DNA from: Sphingobacteriales bacterium
GTDB taxonomy: Bacteria > Bacteroidota > Bacteroidia > Chitinophagales > Chitinophagaceae
NCBI GenBank assembly: GCA_026391525.1
Contig: JAPLEF010000125.1
Span: forward strand, 1 to 34,747
Length of the DNA: 34,747 nucleotides
Direction: 5' to 3'
In this document: positions 18,238-28,865 of the stretch, one piece after another
Layout: each line of letters opens with the position of its first letter
How positions within the stretch are numbered: the first letter of the stretch is position 1
Position numbers and translations under genes: made by a program
The notes under the pieces: model-generated
What the model saw: only the letters and a program-made list of their open reading frames with translations
Databases searched by the model: none
What the model was told of the DNA's origin: nothing

Positions 18238-19362
18238 TCAATTCCCCTTGATCATAAACACATAATCCTGAAGTTTCTTGATTTGAGATACCCTGTCATT
18301 ACCCTTTAATGTAGGTTTTGAATTCACCTTGATAAGATTGTTTCCCGGTTGTTTTTTCACTTCTTCAATGGCGCGGAAAATATGTGATGTTTTGATAGCG
18401 AAAACCACACCCTGCGCATTAGACTCTTTGCTGGAAATGACGCCTACCAGTTCACCCTGTTTATTGATCACCGGAGAGCCGCTGTTACCTTCATTGGCTG
18501 ATGTGTTGAGCTGGCAGTAGATCGTGTCCATCTCATAGCCGTTTTGGGCACTGATATATCCCTCACCATAAACGATTTCTTCTTTAGGAAATCCTAACAT
18601 GAAAACCTGTTCGCCAAGGTCGGCATTCGATTTTTTGATGCTAAAGGGAAGTGGGGGTAATTTTTTAAAATCGGCATCGATCACTTTCAGGATGGCCAGA
18701 TCGTTTTGGGTATTGACATAAACCGATTGGGTTAGAAACTGTTCCCCTTTGTTGTTTTCAATGATGAGTTTGTTGCGGGCTTCCTTAAGCACGTGAGCAT
18801 TGGTTACGATATAATTGTTAGTAGCATCAATTAAAAAGCCTGTTGCCTGGAATTTACTTTCCACTCTTTGTTTTACAGCAGCGGCATCCGTTTCGATAGT
18901 GGCAGTTTTGATCTGTCCGATTTGTTTTTCGAGTTTACGGTATTTGGCATCCTGTTCATTGATTTGTTTTACCAATGGCTGGATATTGCTTTCTTTATCT
19001 CTGTTCAACGAAGAAATGATGGAGGCACTCAGGATAGAAACCAAACCTGCAATGGAGGCGGCAACAGCAACCGTTCTTTTATAGCGGTTCCAGAAGTAAA
19101 CCAGTTTTGCTTTGCCTTCTATTTTCGATTTGCTGATCAGGCCTTCATCTGAAAGCTTAGCGGCTGTTTCATGCAATTGATGCCTGAATTTCTTGCCTTC
19201 ACTAAATTTTTCAAGCTCGTTCAGGAAAAAAATATGTTCCACAACAGCTTGATCGAGTTCAGGATTGTTTTTCCTGATTTCTTCAAAATAGGTCATTTCT
19301 TCCGGGCTCATTTCGCCTTTAATGTACCTTTCAGCTGCATCAATCAATAAAGTATCTTCCAT
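18238..19362 (-). CDS. Membrane-anchored trypsin-like serine protease with anti-sigma-like N-terminal domain
   Basis: 374 residues in three parts. Residues 1-75 are a helical cytoplasmic domain (AAERYIKGEMSPEEMTYFEE, NNPELDQAVVEHIFF) of the kind found at the N-terminus of Bacteroidota anti-sigma factors. Residues 97-118 form a single membrane span, followed by a coiled coil (about 124-152). Residues 165-335 are a trypsin-like (S1C/HtrA-type) protease domain with a full triad: His190 (TNAH), Asp221 (QNDLAIL) and Ser294 (EGNSGSP). There is no PDZ domain. The start overlaps the stop of the ECF sigma gene (TGATG), a translational coupling typical of sigma/anti-sigma pairs. The inferred role is a sensor that binds sigma inside and carries a protease outside; this is not proven. 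Confidence 0.85.
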   Translation of the reverse strand: MEDTLLIDAAERYIKGEMSPEEMTYFEEIRKNNPELDQAVVEHIFFLNELEKFSEGKKFRHQLHETAAKLSDEGLISKSKIEGKAKLVYFWNRYKRTVAVAASIAGLVSILSASIISSLNRDKESNIQPLVKQINEQDAKYRKLEKQIGQIKTATIETDAAAVKQRVESKFQATGFLIDATNNYIVTNAHVLKEARNKLIIENNKGEQFLTQSVYVNTQNDLAILKVIDADFKKLPPLPFSIKKSNADLGEQVFMLGFPKEEIVYGEGYISAQNGYEMDTIYCQLNTSANEGNSGSPVINKQGELVGVISSKESNAQGVVFAIKTSHIFRAIEEVKKQPGNNLIKVNSKPTLKGNDRVSQIKKLQDYVFMIKGN

Positions 19363-19940
19363 CAGGGTGTATTTTTATATTGGGCAAAAAACAATTTTTT
19401 TAACCGCACAAGGCATTTATATTTCTGCGTTTTTGCATTGTCGGCATTGGTATAGCTGAATTCCTCGGCAATTTGCTGCATGTGTTTCTTTTGCAGATAA
19501 TAGGCTTCCAGCAGACTCTTACAAGGCTCACCTATTTTTTGCAAGGCATTTTCCATGATGTTGAATTCCTGTTGCCTTTTTTCATGAACTTCCATATCCT
19601 CTTCAACTGGCGCAATTTGTTCTAAATCATCGGTTTGCCGGCCGAATCGCTGCTGTTGATTAAGTTTCTTGAGCCATAACCTCCTGCAAACCGAGTAGAG
19701 ATAAGTTTTCAACTGGCAATTGAGCTCAAAATCCTTGCTTTTCGACTTTTCAAACAACACAATCATGCCTTCCTGAAAAACATCGGCAGCATCATCAGGA
19801 TTTCCATTATTGATCATGATCATATGTAAAATCATATGATAATGATCACGGTAAATCTTTTCAATGGCATCTTTTTCGTTTCGGGCAAGCCCTTCCAATA
19901 AAGCAATGTCGGATGCTGATCTGTTCACTTGTGCATGCAT
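19362..19940 (-). CDS. ECF-type RNA polymerase sigma factor
   Basis: 192 residues. Region 2 spans about 23-95 (DAADVFQEGMIVLFEKSKSK, then LKTYLYSVCRRLWLKKL), which contacts core polymerase and the -10 element. Region 4 spans about 125-185 (CKSLLEAYYLQKKHMQQIAE, then AKTQKYKCLVRLKKL), which binds the -35 element. There is no region 1.1 or 3, as in ECF sigmas. The helix-turn-helix insert FSYTNADNAKTQKYKC is typical of the Bacteroidota branch. The protease/anti-sigma-like gene follows with a 1-base TGATG overlap. It is divergent from the small lipoprotein gene across 124 bp that contain an inverted repeat. The target promoter is not known. Confidence 0.9.
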   Translation of the reverse strand: MHAQVNRSASDIALLEGLARNEKDAIEKIYRDHYHMILHMIMINNGNPDDAADVFQEGMIVLFEKSKSKDFELNCQLKTYLYSVCRRLWLKKLNQQQRFGRQTDDLEQIAPVEEDMEVHEKRQQEFNIMENALQKIGEPCKSLLEAYYLQKKHMQQIAEEFSYTNADNAKTQKYKCLVRLKKLFFAQYKNTP

Positions 19941-19961
19941 TAATACTTTAATAAGGTATAA

Positions 19962-20004
19962 GTAACCCTTTCAGGGAAAAAAAATATTTTTCAATCCGGG
20001 TTAC
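19962..20004. promoter_or_regulatory. Inverted repeat in the sigma/lipoprotein divergent gap
   Basis: GTAACCC (19962-19968) and GGGTTAC (19998-20004) form a perfect 7-bp inverted repeat with a 29-bp A/T-rich spacer. Each half carries an AAC core facing one of the two divergent genes, as ECF -35 elements often do. It may be a pair of divergent ECF-dependent -35 boxes or an operator; this is inference. Confidence 0.4.
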
Positions 20005-20064
20005 CTTTATTCAATTCATGTATTAATCTTCAAATTATAATTTTAAATCAAACAAAAAACAACA

Positions 20065-20259
20065 ATGAAAAAGTTTTTAGCAATTGCTTTAATCGCTGCC
20101 TCTTTTACCGCTTGTAACGAAGGCGAAAAGAAAGTTGAAGAAACCACCACCACAACTACCACAGTTCCAGTTGTTGCTGATACAACAATGAAAACAGTTG
20201 TAGATTCGGTTAAAACAACTACCACTACCATTACTGATTCAGTTAAAGCTGCTCATTAA
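20065..20259 (+). CDS. Small Thr-rich lipoprotein
   Basis: 64 residues. The signal peptide ends in a lipobox, SFTAC, with lipidated Cys17 (MKKFLAIALIAASFTAC). The mature part begins NEGEKKVEE, an acidic stretch like Bacteroidota surface lipoprotein export signals. It then consists mostly of Thr/Val/Lys runs (TTTTTTTVPVV, VKTTTTT) with the DSVK motif twice. It is probably an intrinsically disordered envelope lipoprotein; no enzymatic domain is possible at this size. It is divergent from the ECF sigma gene and closed by its own strong terminator. It could be a target of that sigma factor. Function unknown. Confidence 0.75.
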   Translation: MKKFLAIALIAASFTACNEGEKKVEETTTTTTTVPVVADTTMKTVVDSVKTTTTTITDSVKAAH

Positions 20260-24961: not shown

Positions 24962-27900
24962 TTACTTAATGATCAGTACCGTTCCTCTTTGTTCAACTAC
25001 TCTGCCATTTTTATCTAAACCCTTCACCATCCATACATAGGTTCCCGGATCCTGGCTTTTTCCTAAATAGGAACCATTCCATCCCTGTAACCATCTGTTG
25101 GTTTGGAAAACCATCTGGCCATAGCGATTATACACCCTGAAATATTCGGTGTACGAAATACCAACCGGGATAGCCCGGAAAATATCATTAAGCCCATCAC
25201 CGTTAGGTGTAAACGAATTGGGAACGTAATAGCATGGTCCGGTATATACCTTTATGAATACACTGTCATTACCCAGGCAGCCTTCCGAATCGGTAACGGT
25301 AACCACAAAAAACTGGTCGTTGGTAAGCGTAGCAAGTGGATTTTGTAAAGTGGAAAGGTTTAAAGGGAAGGCAGGCGACCACTCATAACTAACACCACCG
25401 CTCGACATCAGTTGGTGCGGAACACCCAAAACGGCAATCGTATCTTTTCCTGCATAGGCCGGAACCGGCGGTTGAACAGTTACGATAACCTCATCGGTTA
25501 CCAAGAAGCCACAGCCATAATCGTCGGTAACGGTAAGGGTGTACAATTGTGTTGAATCCGGTATGGCAATTGTTGTTGCCTGATCGGGTGTTTGCAGGGT
25601 TTCGGGTGGCGACCATTGGAAGTTTACCGGACCGGATACGTTGGTGGCAGTTCCAACCAGCAAGGTGTCTCGTTTGTAATTACATACAGCTACATTATCT
25701 CCGGCATGAGCTACTGGTTTATGAAGGATATTCACATTGATGGTATCCTCTCTGAAACATACGCCCCATATTGCATTCACAATATAGGTGGTAGTGTCGG
25801 TTGTGGTAGCAGTAGGGTTTTTGATATTGCTATCGTCTAGTGTGCTTACCAAAGCAGAATCAGGTATTGTTCTCCACTTGAAGATATTAGCCTGAGTACT
25901 CACATTAGGTTTGAGAACAATTGACTGCCCGATACAAACACTGGAATCAGGCATTGGAGTAATCACCATATTATCGATAAGCACCACATTCATTACCGTA
26001 TCAGCGATACAACCTTTGTTGTCTTTTACTTTGATATTCGGATAAAATCCTCCAGAAACAATGAATACAGGTGAATTTTGATAAGTCACCCCATTGTCTA
26101 TCGAATACCGGTAGGGAGCTGTACCTCCAGATCCGCTAACCGTGATGCGGCCATCATTACCATTACAGGTACCGGGCTGGCTTGTAGCTGAGGCATCTAA
26201 AACGGTAGGCTCTGTTAAAGTTACTGTGGTGTCTTTCGTGCAACCGGCATTATCGCGAATGGTAAAACTATATGTACCCGCAGGCAGATTAGGGAAGGTA
26301 TTAGCCGGTTGCCAGTTAACACCGTTGTCGATGGTATATTCATAAGGCGTTACGCCTCCTGATGGATTTAGACGAATACTTCCATTGGCATTTCCGTTAC
26401 ATAAAGGTTTTGTAAGGGTAACGGTGGTGGTTAGTGGCGTATTGGTGGTTAGCGTCACATTGCCTGTTCCTATGCAGCCTAATGTGTTCGTAAATGAATA
26501 GGTATAAGTTCCGGGAGCAAGCCCTGTGAAATTGGGATTATTAACTTGTGTAATAGCAGTTGGTAAACCCGGATTCAATACATAAGTATAATTTCCGGGC
26601 ACCGGTGGATTGATGATGATGATACCGTCGTTGATATTGGCGCAAGGTGGATTGGTAACGGTTGGGGCAATAGGAACCAAGGGCCCACCTTGAGCTACTA
26701 CGGGGTTAGGGCTTACCACACCACTGCAACCTAAAGCTGTAGTGAAACTGATGGTATAAGTGCCTGAAGCCAGTCCGGTGAAAACCGGGTTGTTATTTTG
26801 AACTATATTCCCGGGGTTTAGCGTGTAGATAAAAGGACTGCCTGTGGCAGGGGGTGTTATGGTTATCGTTCCATCATTCACGGTGGGGCAAGATGTGGGT
26901 GCTGTACTTGCCTGCGCAGCTACAGGTGCGCCATTAACGATGTTGATATTAGGAATCGTGCCAGAACATCCAATAGCAGTTGTAAAGGCTATGGAATAGT
27001 TATTAGGAGCCAGATTCTGAAATACGGGGTTATTGTTCTGTACAATATTTCCCGGAGTAAGGGTGTAAACAAATGGTGCACCTGTTGCTGGTGGTGTAAT
27101 GGTAATCGTACCATCAGTAAGTCCGGGGCAGGTGGTATTTACCGGTAAAGCTGAGGCTGCCGGATTAGCTCCGTTAGCAACTATGATATTACTCACAGTA
27201 CCCGTACAGCCAATTGGATTCGTAAAAGTAACGGTGTAAGTATTGGGCCCTAAACCTGTGAATACGGGGTTGTTATTCTGAACAATATTACCCGGGGTGA
27301 GGGTATAAACATAAGTGTCAGGTGAATTAGGAGCAACAGTAATGGTTCCGTCTGTGAGCCCGGGGCATGTTGTAGGCTGAGGTGTTGCAGATCCCCCTGC
27401 AAGTCCGCCAACCACAACTGTAGTACTTGCTGTACAAGAATTTCCGGAAGGAGTAGTAGCCGTTACCGTATACGTGTATGAACCCGGAAAAGATGGTGCT
27501 ATTACACCAGTCGGGTTTTGTTGATTAGAAGAAAAACAATTCGGACCCGTCCAGATATAACTTGCACCGGGAAGACTGCTGGTTAGATTGAAATTTTGAC
27601 CCGGACAAACCGGCCCTGTGTTTGCTGCAGTGATATTACAAATTACAGCGCAATTGGTACTGGCATTACCGCCAGACTGCTGGAAGGTGATGCTACCCGC
27701 TTGGTTTGAGTAATTGGTTAACAGTAGCACGTAAAACTGTCCTGCTAATGCACCAGTTATAACAGCCGTTTCATCATTTGAAGTGGAGTAACTGCAACTG
27801 ATATTATTAGCTGCTGTTAGCCCACCACAACTGGCAGCAAGATTGGTAAATGGCCCCCAACATGCAAAATCAACATCCAATGAAGTACCAGTGGCACTCG

Positions 27901-28618
27901 TTTGTACGATATTGATACTTAAATCTCCCGGGTTTTGGATTTGCATGTAATAAAATACAGGATTGGGTGTAGTAAAGAGACATCCATAAATACCACTTCC
28001 ACCTAAAGATGGTACATTGGTGGTATTAGGGAAAGTATAAACATTGCTGGTACAGAATGGGGCAGCAGTTGAGCAACTTCCTCCCGGACCCGGAGGAGGT
28101 AATTCGGTTACACAAATGCCAAAAGTTCCGGGGTTGTTGTTTCCATATTCCCAAACCCGGATCCAAATGGTATCTCCAACCGTTAATCCCGTTCTGCTGA
28201 TTCTTGGCATAGCTCCATTCTGGCTATCATCATCATCACATTCAATGAAAATTAAACTGCTGCAAGTTCCCCTATAGATTGCCATACCGCCATCTGTTAT
28301 CACTCCGTCATCAGTATCAATAACAACACTTCCGCTACAGGGAACCACAATCTTGAACCAAACATCACCACCAGTATAATTGGCACAACCGGGAGCCGGT
28401 ACTCCGGGAGAAGAAGTAGCAGCAACAGTAGTGTAAATCTGATAACTGCAGGTAGGAGCCACATTGAGTAAAATGGCATTACAAGGGTCATCATTGGCTG
28501 GCTGGGCTTTGGCCTGTAAACTGATCATGCTGAACATTATCATAACGTACAGCCAGGGTGCCAACCATTTATTTGCAGGAGAAATGCCAGTGTTTTTTTT
28601 AAGGAAAAAATACTTCAT
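24962..28618 (-). CDS. Large secreted SprB-repeat protein with T9SS type B C-terminal domain
   Basis: 1218 residues from the chosen ATG at 28618; the frame is open to an ATG at 28669. The inner start gives a normal signal peptide (MKYFFLKK, then a hydrophobic stretch ending SLQAKAQ at about 39). Next: two Cys-rich beta domains (about 40-325), a PKD/Ig-like domain (about 325-405), tandem modules of about 80 residues (about 410-725), two canonical SprB-type repeats (PYEYTIDNGVNWQ and PYRYSIDNGVTYQ, about 739-890) and more Ig/PKD-like domains. It ends in a gliding-motility-type (CHU_C) sorting domain from YYVPNSFTPNGDGLNDIF (about 1128) with YNRYGQMVF and PGTYVWMVKG. Exported by Sec and the T9SS to the surface; adhesion or gliding is inferred. 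It has its own terminator. Confidence 0.9.
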   Translation of the reverse strand: MKYFFLKKNTGISPANKWLAPWLYVMIMFSMISLQAKAQPANDDPCNAILLNVAPTCSYQIYTTVAATSSPGVPAPGCANYTGGDVWFKIVVPCSGSVVIDTDDGVITDGGMAIYRGTCSSLIFIECDDDDSQNGAMPRISRTGLTVGDTIWIRVWEYGNNNPGTFGICVTELPPPGPGGSCSTAAPFCTSNVYTFPNTTNVPSLGGSGIYGCLFTTPNPVFYYMQIQNPGDLSINIVQTSATGTSLDVDFACWGPFTNLAASCGGLTAANNISCSYSTSNDETAVITGALAGQFYVLLLTNYSNQAGSITFQQSGGNASTNCAVICNITAANTGPVCPGQNFNLTSSLPGASYIWTGPNCFSSNQQNPTGVIAPSFPGSYTYTVTATTPSGNSCTASTTVVVGGLAGGSATPQPTTCPGLTDGTITVAPNSPDTYVYTLTPGNIVQNNNPVFTGLGPNTYTVTFTNPIGCTGTVSNIIVANGANPAASALPVNTTCPGLTDGTITITPPATGAPFVYTLTPGNIVQNNNPVFQNLAPNNYSIAFTTAIGCSGTIPNINIVNGAPVAAQASTAPTSCPTVNDGTITITPPATGSPFIYTLNPGNIVQNNNPVFTGLASGTYTISFTTALGCSGVVSPNPVVAQGGPLVPIAPTVTNPPCANINDGIIIINPPVPGNYTYVLNPGLPTAITQVNNPNFTGLAPGTYTYSFTNTLGCIGTGNVTLTTNTPLTTTVTLTKPLCNGNANGSIRLNPSGGVTPYEYTIDNGVNWQPANTFPNLPAGTYSFTIRDNAGCTKDTTVTLTEPTVLDASATSQPGTCNGNDGRITVSGSGGTAPYRYSIDNGVTYQNSPVFIVSGGFYPNIKVKDNKGCIADTVMNVVLIDNMVITPMPDSSVCIGQSIVLKPNVSTQANIFKWRTIPDSALVSTLDDSNIKNPTATTTDTTTYIVNAIWGVCFREDTINVNILHKPVAHAGDNVAVCNYKRDTLLVGTATNVSGPVNFQWSPPETLQTPDQATTIAIPDSTQLYTLTVTDDYGCGFLVTDEVIVTVQPPVPAYAGKDTIAVLGVPHQLMSSGGVSYEWSPAFPLNLSTLQNPLATLTNDQFFVVTVTDSEGCLGNDSVFIKVYTGPCYYVPNSFTPNGDGLNDIFRAIPVGISYTEYFRVYNRYGQMVFQTNRWLQGWNGSYLGKSQDPGTYVWMVKGLDKNGRVVEQRGTVLIIK
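26540..27330 (-). repeat. Tandem ~240-bp repeats inside the SprB-repeat gene
   Basis: The segment encoding TPGNIVQNNNPVF recurs at about 27261-27295, 27021-27055 and 26781-26815, exactly 240 bp apart. A more diverged fourth unit (QVNNPNFTGLAPGTY) starts near 26520. Each unit also holds a CPxxxDGTITI segment and an IGCSG-type segment. Confidence 0.85.
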
Positions 28619-28865
28619 TGGTGTTGATATGTTTTTACTTACAATGCTCATTAGTAAGGTGATATTCATTTCATCAGGGTTCTTTATCTTAGAAAGAAGT
28701 GACCTGAAATCCTTGCGGTAAAAGTTCAGGAGATCCTTAATAAGAAATGAGAAGCCGAAATTTTACCCGTGAAGTTAACATTAATTTATGAGTTTTTCCA
28801 CTCCTGACAACTTCTTTTTCAACACTAATTAACAGGAAAAATACACAACGGATTGGTTGAAAAAC
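28619..28865. other. Upstream region of the SprB-repeat gene, no gene seen
   Basis: AT-rich and without a frame of credible coding character. It contains the leader of the minus-strand surface protein gene. No exact TAnnTTTG box was found for that gene. Confidence 0.4.

Follow-up and report, generated by a model that had tools for sequence, protein, structure and literature searches.

In the sigmaE-RseA-DegS system of E. coli and the AlgU-MucA-AlgW system of P. aeruginosa, an ECF sigma factor is combined with a membrane anti-sigma factor, a periplasmic HtrA-type protease and further proteolysis, and AlgW is switched by the C-terminus of the periplasmic MucE (PMC8545111, PMC7593790, in the sections that deal with these systems). 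Most HtrA proteases are described as trimers (PMC8545111). The RsgI proteins of C. thermocellum are also membrane anti-sigma factors; for most of them the relevant part of PMC12203970 gives periplasmic self-cleavage as a proposal, after which RseP cuts the membrane span and ClpXP reads the XAA end. RsgI uses a self-cleavage motif, not a serine protease, and its outer domains are linked to sugars. Its partner sigma factor is of the SigI type, not ECF. In E. coli, too, the cut by RseP leaves RseA with a VAA end.

The unusual Bacteroidota anti-sigma factors described in the literature searched, as far as the sections on them go, are the Dma proteins: Dma1 and Dma2 of Bacteroides are the anti-sigma members of ECF pairs in which the outer part is unusual and the output concerns the envelope (PMC13088901, PMC9308784). 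Class I anti-sigma domains (ASDI) have four helices, the first three bundled on sigma4 and the fourth on sigma2, and a recognised domain of this class adjoins only about 6% of Bacteroidetes ECF sigma factors (PMC7406223, sections on this class). Here we analyse a gene pair in a 34,747-nucleotide stretch of Bacteroidota DNA (the window), for which a first-pass annotation had proposed that one protein holds the sigma factor inside the cell while carrying a protease outside.

Results

Layout of the gene pair

The sigma gene and the gene of its membrane partner both lie on the minus strand and share a single base in a TGATG, the overlap that the first-pass annotation had noted. Their parts are as follows.

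19362..19928, minus strand: ECF sigma gene, 188 aa from the likely GTG start
18238..19362, minus strand: putative fusion of anti-sigma factor and protease, 374 aa, overlapping the sigma gene by one base
19114..19362, minus strand: class I anti-sigma-like helical domain, residues 1-83, with no Cys and hence no zinc motif
19015..19071, minus strand: single membrane span, residues 98-116, the most hydrophobic stretch; N-terminus inside by the charge rule
19057..19065, minus strand: VAA in the span, residues 100-102, a candidate position for site-2 cleavage and a ClpXP degron
18901..18981, minus strand: helix taken as a periplasmic coil, residues 128-154, followed by a low-confidence linker to about residue 170
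18352..18852, minus strand: HtrA/DegS-like serine protease domain, residues 171-337, with H190, D221 and S294 and no PDZ
18241..18297, minus strand: C-terminal helix and strand (Qi.K.qDyVFMiK), residues 356-374, conserved to the same degree as the protease core

Judged by its profile matches, the upstream gene is a clear ECF sigma factor: TIGR02937 covers residues 24-182 with 75.6 bits (curated cut-off 42.9) and Pfam Sigma70_r2 matches with 33 bits against a cut-off of 24. The Pfam search of this protein gave no region 4 match, and the TIGR02937 match reaches residue 182.

For the partner, the order of parts read from the letters (helical N-terminal domain, one span, coiled coil, protease without PDZ) is borne out by Pfam and by an AlphaFold model of mean pLDDT 83, with helices at residues 3-15, 20-32, 34-72, 84-119 and 128-154, and with the strands of the protease between residues 171 and 373. 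The charge rule puts the N-terminus inside the cell in 209 of 232 distinct homologues, the set of pairs left after removal of L001 and seven duplicates. Within the span, A101 and A102 are the best conserved positions: each is found in 231 of the 232, both together in 230, and [V/I]AA at residues 100-102 in 216. Most other span positions vary, A99 being kept in 189.

The protease domain is covered by Pfam Trypsin_2 at residues 173-308 (4e-25), and the top Foldseek matches of the partner model are DegS delta-PDZ structures (E 3e-12). The Pfam search found no PDZ in the partner at E 0.1, and the chain stops 37 residues past the last helix of the protease domain core. The His190/Asp221/Ser294 triad, reported as intact in the first reading, is present in all 232 distinct homologues, which argues for a working enzyme; a pseudo-protease reading was dropped for the same reason. 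Against the NCBIfam models the partner scores 57.2 for DegS (cut-off 422.95) and 72.2 bits for MarP over residues 131-337 (curated cut-off 250). The C-terminal strand DYVFMIK is similar to AVYKI and AVFKI, the first strand in related proteases, and could be a stand-in for this first barrel strand in circularly shifted position, the covariation in support being weak. At least one further trypsin-like protease is encoded in the window's genome (G000:C181).

Conservation and distribution

In 242 loci, which were picked by similarity to the partner, mostly from listed matches, so that the most divergent family members are under-sampled, the sigma gene stands directly upstream of the partner 240 times, and in 222 of these the two genes are -10 to +19 bases apart. 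Both loci with no visible sigma gene (L048 and L065) end at contig ends; L002, L116-L130 and L149-L257, which are other proteases or motif sites, were left out of the count. Fortuitous neighbourhood was dropped on this basis, and the case that the first-pass annotation had held against itself, a protease gene not conserved beside the sigma gene, is not what we see. Where the protease domain is shared but the N-terminal part is not (L116-L124, L149-L157), none of the 18 inspected loci has an adjoining sigma gene: coupling to sigma follows the N-terminal part, not the protease domain. The proteases at L116-L119 and L124 (family f12, same order) have 513-574 aa, with the same protease domain and C-terminal tail, an unrelated N-terminus and no sigma.

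Partner matches at E 1e-10 or better occur in 189 of 195 genomes of the window's family; the weakest of these matches may come from other proteases alone. Among named genomes a scan turned up 98 loci, the best 80 of which are mostly from Chitinophagaceae or other Bacteroidota MAGs and from Pedobacter and its relatives. Across the phylum, 21 of 296 genomes have the full architecture (11 in f1, 7 in f23, 2 in f29 and 1, with a shortened N-terminus, in f30), and the other listed matches are to the protease domain only. The search for the same domain order beside ECF genes elsewhere in Bacteroidota, which had been suggested for this locus, thus finds it in four families; judged by the closest loci that bear names, f1, the family of the window, would be Chitinophagaceae and f23 Sphingobacteriaceae. 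In the f30 homologue (L146, 1480-2487) the first anti-sigma helices are missing and the sigma gene is adjacent; a misplaced start, a frame error or a real truncation of the anti-sigma factor may be the cause. A 64% identical copy, L037, comes from a record titled as a Streptomyces griseus MAG, a label that is most likely wrong.

The N-terminal domain

By profile, the N-terminal domain, with its conserved motif E.Yl.Gem..E...FE.LRkn...vD, matches class I anti-sigma domains (ASDI) of the zf-HC2 type, to which it would be related. In hhalign its profile aligned over 24 columns with four zf-HC2 domains taken from elsewhere in the order, at a score of 29.5 (probability 69%), compared with at most 14.5 for 200 column shuffles, 6.9 for the reversed profile and at most 15.7 for other parts of both proteins. 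Domains of this type share a Y.xGEl..E...F-like motif and an N-terminal helical position, here beside an ECF gene, whereas the window's domain is without their zinc motif and its model shows three helices, the third 39 residues long, instead of four. Pfam, run on 53 members, returned zf-HC2 as the commonest family, yet in 5 of the 53 and weakly (best E 0.006). Searches for zf-HC2 in the window's own domain and in the window's genome gave no match, and no second copy of the domain was found in this genome at E up to 10.

Foldseek returned 11 matches for the domain model, none of them significant (best E 4.5). On re-alignment to Foldseek's own 12 chains, Z reached 2 for RsiW (Z 6.3, rmsd 4.2, 69 aligned) and RslA (Z 5.1, rmsd 5.4, 62 aligned) alone, values of a size that is common by chance for helical models. 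PPAR-gamma nuclear receptors, which account for all 60 matches listed of the 100 in a PDB profile search, were taken as chance (best E 0.076).

Covariation was computed by mean-field DCA on the 232 sigma-partner pairs (effective number about 156). The top 20-200 pairs are 1.1-1.3-fold enriched in the N-terminal domain, and three shuffled pairings gave 0.87-1.05 in the top 50. Strong covarying pairs number 38 with the true pairing versus 1, 2 and 8 with the shuffled ones; they lie all along the partner, a distribution that common descent can account for. The likeness to Bacteroidota anti-sigma factors that had been noticed at first sight is favoured by the profile relation and the predicted inside N-terminus; the insignificant Foldseek result, the missing zinc motif and the lack of a zf-HC2 match in the window's own domain count against it.

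The promoter element and the start of the sigma gene

Three elements that the earlier account lacked came to light here: the span XAA motif, a promoter element and a divergent lipoprotein gene. The last two have these positions.

19940..19968, minus strand: promoter GGGTTAC-N15-GTATTAA, reading into the sigma gene
19998..20026, plus strand: divergent copy GGGTTAC-N15-GTATTAA, reading towards the lipoprotein gene
20065..20259, plus strand: small Thr-rich lipoprotein, 64 aa, with a lipobox Cys, a conserved divergent neighbour

Searched as GGGTYAC with a spacer of 14-17, GGGTTAC-N15/16-GTATWAA stands before the sigma gene in 214 of the 235 loci with enough sequence (duplicates kept), and the reversed pattern in none of the 235. 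The exact element is absent from 21, and the misses inspected (L112, L356, L361) are near variants in the -10. Two tandem elements precede the sigma gene in L053, L060 and L131.

A three-mismatch scan was exceeded by its control (211 sites vs 310), and for this reason exact matches alone were used across genomes. The window's genome has three: one into the sigma gene, the divergent one, and a third that lies 44 bases upstream of the gene for a 210-aa AMPK1_CBM/helix-hairpin protein. Within the family, 117 genomes contain 233 sites where the reversed control gives 39, and the element occurs in 103 of these genomes, namely in 82/82 with a close orthologue (partner E < 1e-60) and 21/35 others, a comparison that ignores kinship. 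It is present in 34 of 41 genomes of f23 and in 10 of 100 of f25, a family where only protease-domain matches were seen and where reversed controls outnumber sites by 32 to 10, a single genome accounting for 13 of the 32. From position and co-occurrence we infer that this sigma factor reads the GGGTTAC element, and the operon looks autoregulated.

While the identity of the sigma gene as ECF holds, its start at 19940 probably does not. At full length the ORF has 192 aa (19362-19940, minus strand) and its 5' end is inside the promoter: the ATG at 19940 begins with an A that also ends the -10 element, which makes GTG 19928, the next in-frame start at codon 5, the likelier one. GTG is the first in-frame start in 178 of the 214 loci having the promoter element, and in 183 of them the first start comes 3 or 9-13 bases past the -10, a distance that suggests leaderless sigma transcripts. 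In the window itself (19926-19946, minus strand) a likely leaderless GTG directly follows the -10, and the spacing recurs in most homologous loci.

The divergent lipoprotein and the predicted regulon

Of the 126 loci with 700 or more bases upstream, 121 have a divergent small lipoprotein gene, versus 2 of 125 in the downstream control flank. The exact divergent element is present in 96 of the 126, at most 120 bases from the lipoprotein start in 54. Mature lipoproteins have 45-54 residues in 97 of 121 cases; they are rich in Thr, Ala, Lys and Asp with hardly any aromatic residues, and 101 of the 121 have His or Lys as their last residue. In L255, L405, L413 and L414 the same promoter element is followed by tandem copies, two or three in number.

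The regulon sample comprised 80 further stretches around sites plus L158 and L160 (82 loci, 101 sites), some of the stretches being unlinked to the sigma gene and some lying on its divergent side. Downstream of the 101 sites are 34 small lipoproteins, many of which are the divergent neighbour or tandem copies and others far away (L235, L426), 10 AMPK1_CBM-type proteins (two of them tested), 8 secreted proteins of 140-146 aa, the sigma gene itself 6 times, and 43 other cases. These 43 include four lipoproteins missed by the pattern, sites at stretch ends, five DUF4349-like lipoproteins, of which two were tested and stayed below cut-off, and three DUF4294-like proteins, the one tested scoring 27.8 vs 27. 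Also among these other cases are 16 of the 43 sites of the first batch of extra stretches, which stand before unrelated or no genes and look like background. L158 (824-1456, minus strand) encodes an AMPK1_CBM glycogen-binding domain with a weak helix-hairpin-helix match, behind the same promoter element. Predicted from the promoter pattern, the regulon is small and mostly of envelope type; as its recurring classes are mostly lipoproteins and secreted proteins, the system is probably an envelope-stress response.

Discussion

Our preferred reading, to which we give a probability of roughly one half, is that the two genes encode an autoregulated ECF sigma/anti-sigma pair whose site-1 protease is built into the anti-sigma chain, and that this system probably answers envelope stress. 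At rest, the cytoplasmic N-terminal domain of the membrane protein would hold the sigma factor, as family relation, topology and gene coupling suggest. An envelope signal would then activate the periplasmic HtrA-like domain, which would clip the loose linker (about residues 155-170) of its own or a neighbouring subunit; the coil could hold a protease oligomer. A site-2 protease would next cut the span near [V/I]AA and ClpXP would clear the remnant, setting the sigma factor free to act at the GGGTTAC-N15/16-GTATWAA promoters of its own operon and of the divergent small lipoprotein gene, with a small set of mostly envelope-type genes as a probable further output. The proposal that one protein holds sigma inside and carries a protease outside is partly supported, by the coupling, the profile relation and the charge topology.

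The best pointer to release by proteolysis is the [V/I]AA of the span, where A101 and A102 are nearly invariant while most other positions vary. These alanines, with A99 and A105, could serve helix packing instead. One site-2 protease match (PF02163) exceeds the cut-off in the window's genome; this is a weak clue, since all of the 14 control genomes have one as well. A first cut by the fused domain would be the simplest scheme because the triad is intact throughout. A bolder form of the preferred reading, which we put forward tentatively and with more doubt than belief, makes the anti-sigma factor its own site-1 protease that senses, cuts itself within an oligomer and frees sigma, the divergent repetitive lipoprotein being a sensor ligand or decoy substrate; this would be the standard envelope-stress circuit of two large Bacteroidota families, replacing RseA and DegS.

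The fusion might be an anti-sigma factor and yet not be cut by its own protease. Binding of a substrate or inhibitor, for example the co-regulated lipoprotein, would then shift coil and span to free the sigma factor, and the protease would act on other envelope proteins. The long helical connection from span to coil in the model and the conserved lipoprotein neighbour with its product rich in small residues would suit this, but the nearly invariant AA pair in the span suits proteolytic release better, and we consider release without self-cutting unlikely. Still less probable in our view is that a separate protease, HtrA/Deg or other, cuts first and that the fused domain belongs to what the response produces, its tether serving feedback or co-localisation. 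The genome does contain another trypsin-like protease and the operon looks self-regulated; however, a second enzyme would need no fusion, and the fusion occurs in four families with its triad intact in every distinct homologue. That the partner is a membrane protease merely co-expressed with a sigma factor to which its N-terminal domain does not bind, and which is controlled otherwise, as by expression level, would fit the spread of covarying pairs over the whole partner and the insignificant Foldseek match, and is made very improbable by the profile match to zf-HC2, the N-inside topology and a coupling that tracks the N-terminal part and not the protease domain.

In its workings the preferred reading, self-cut release of a held sigma factor, resembles sigmaE-RseA-DegS and AlgU-MucA-AlgW, although sequence relation to these systems was found for the protease domain only. 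DegS and AlgW are separate proteins with PDZ, whereas here the protease is fused to the putative anti-sigma factor and lacks PDZ. As there is no PDZ match and the DegS model stays far below its cut-off, the protein is not, by sequence, a member of the DegS family. It also matches the model of MarP, a membrane-anchored trypsin-like protease, again far below the curated cut-off; we know of no sigma partner for MarP. With RsgI it would have in common an anti-sigma and a cleavage function in one chain, through other chemistry, the cleavage by the window's protein being our supposition. The premise of the first-pass annotation that the outer parts of anti-sigma factors are FecR-like or non-enzymatic is a little too strong, as RsgI6 of C. 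thermocellum ends in a GH10 domain, though one of very low activity (PMC4711584, in the part on this protein). FecR-like surface signalling was dropped, no FecR domain being among the matches. The outer part of the Dma proteins is a tether with an outer-membrane barrel and no protease, while the window's protein carries a protease; the Dma type was dropped since no barrel family is among the matches and the outer part matches proteases.

Among the papers listed by the literature searches none was seen to describe this fusion or its promoter, and the ECF group may be listed in the ECF reclassification (doi 10.1093/nar/gkaa1229). At the terms searched, the reviews PMC8103513 and PMC10202637 hold nothing of the kind in the parts covered. 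The fused anti-sigma/protease is likely new as a variant, with known kin in sigmaE-RseA-DegS and RsgI.

Most genomes sampled in the window's family and in the Pedobacter family retain the module, and with it go a sharply defined promoter element and a small number of likely targets. With protease and putative anti-sigma factor in one chain, single mutants (Ser294, VAA, promoter) test the whole scheme. The module could also be used in Bacteroidota work as a self-contained sigma switch with a distinctive promoter. Elsewhere in the window, 24962-28669 on the minus strand encodes a large protein of SprB repeats that carries a type IX secretion signal (CHU_C).
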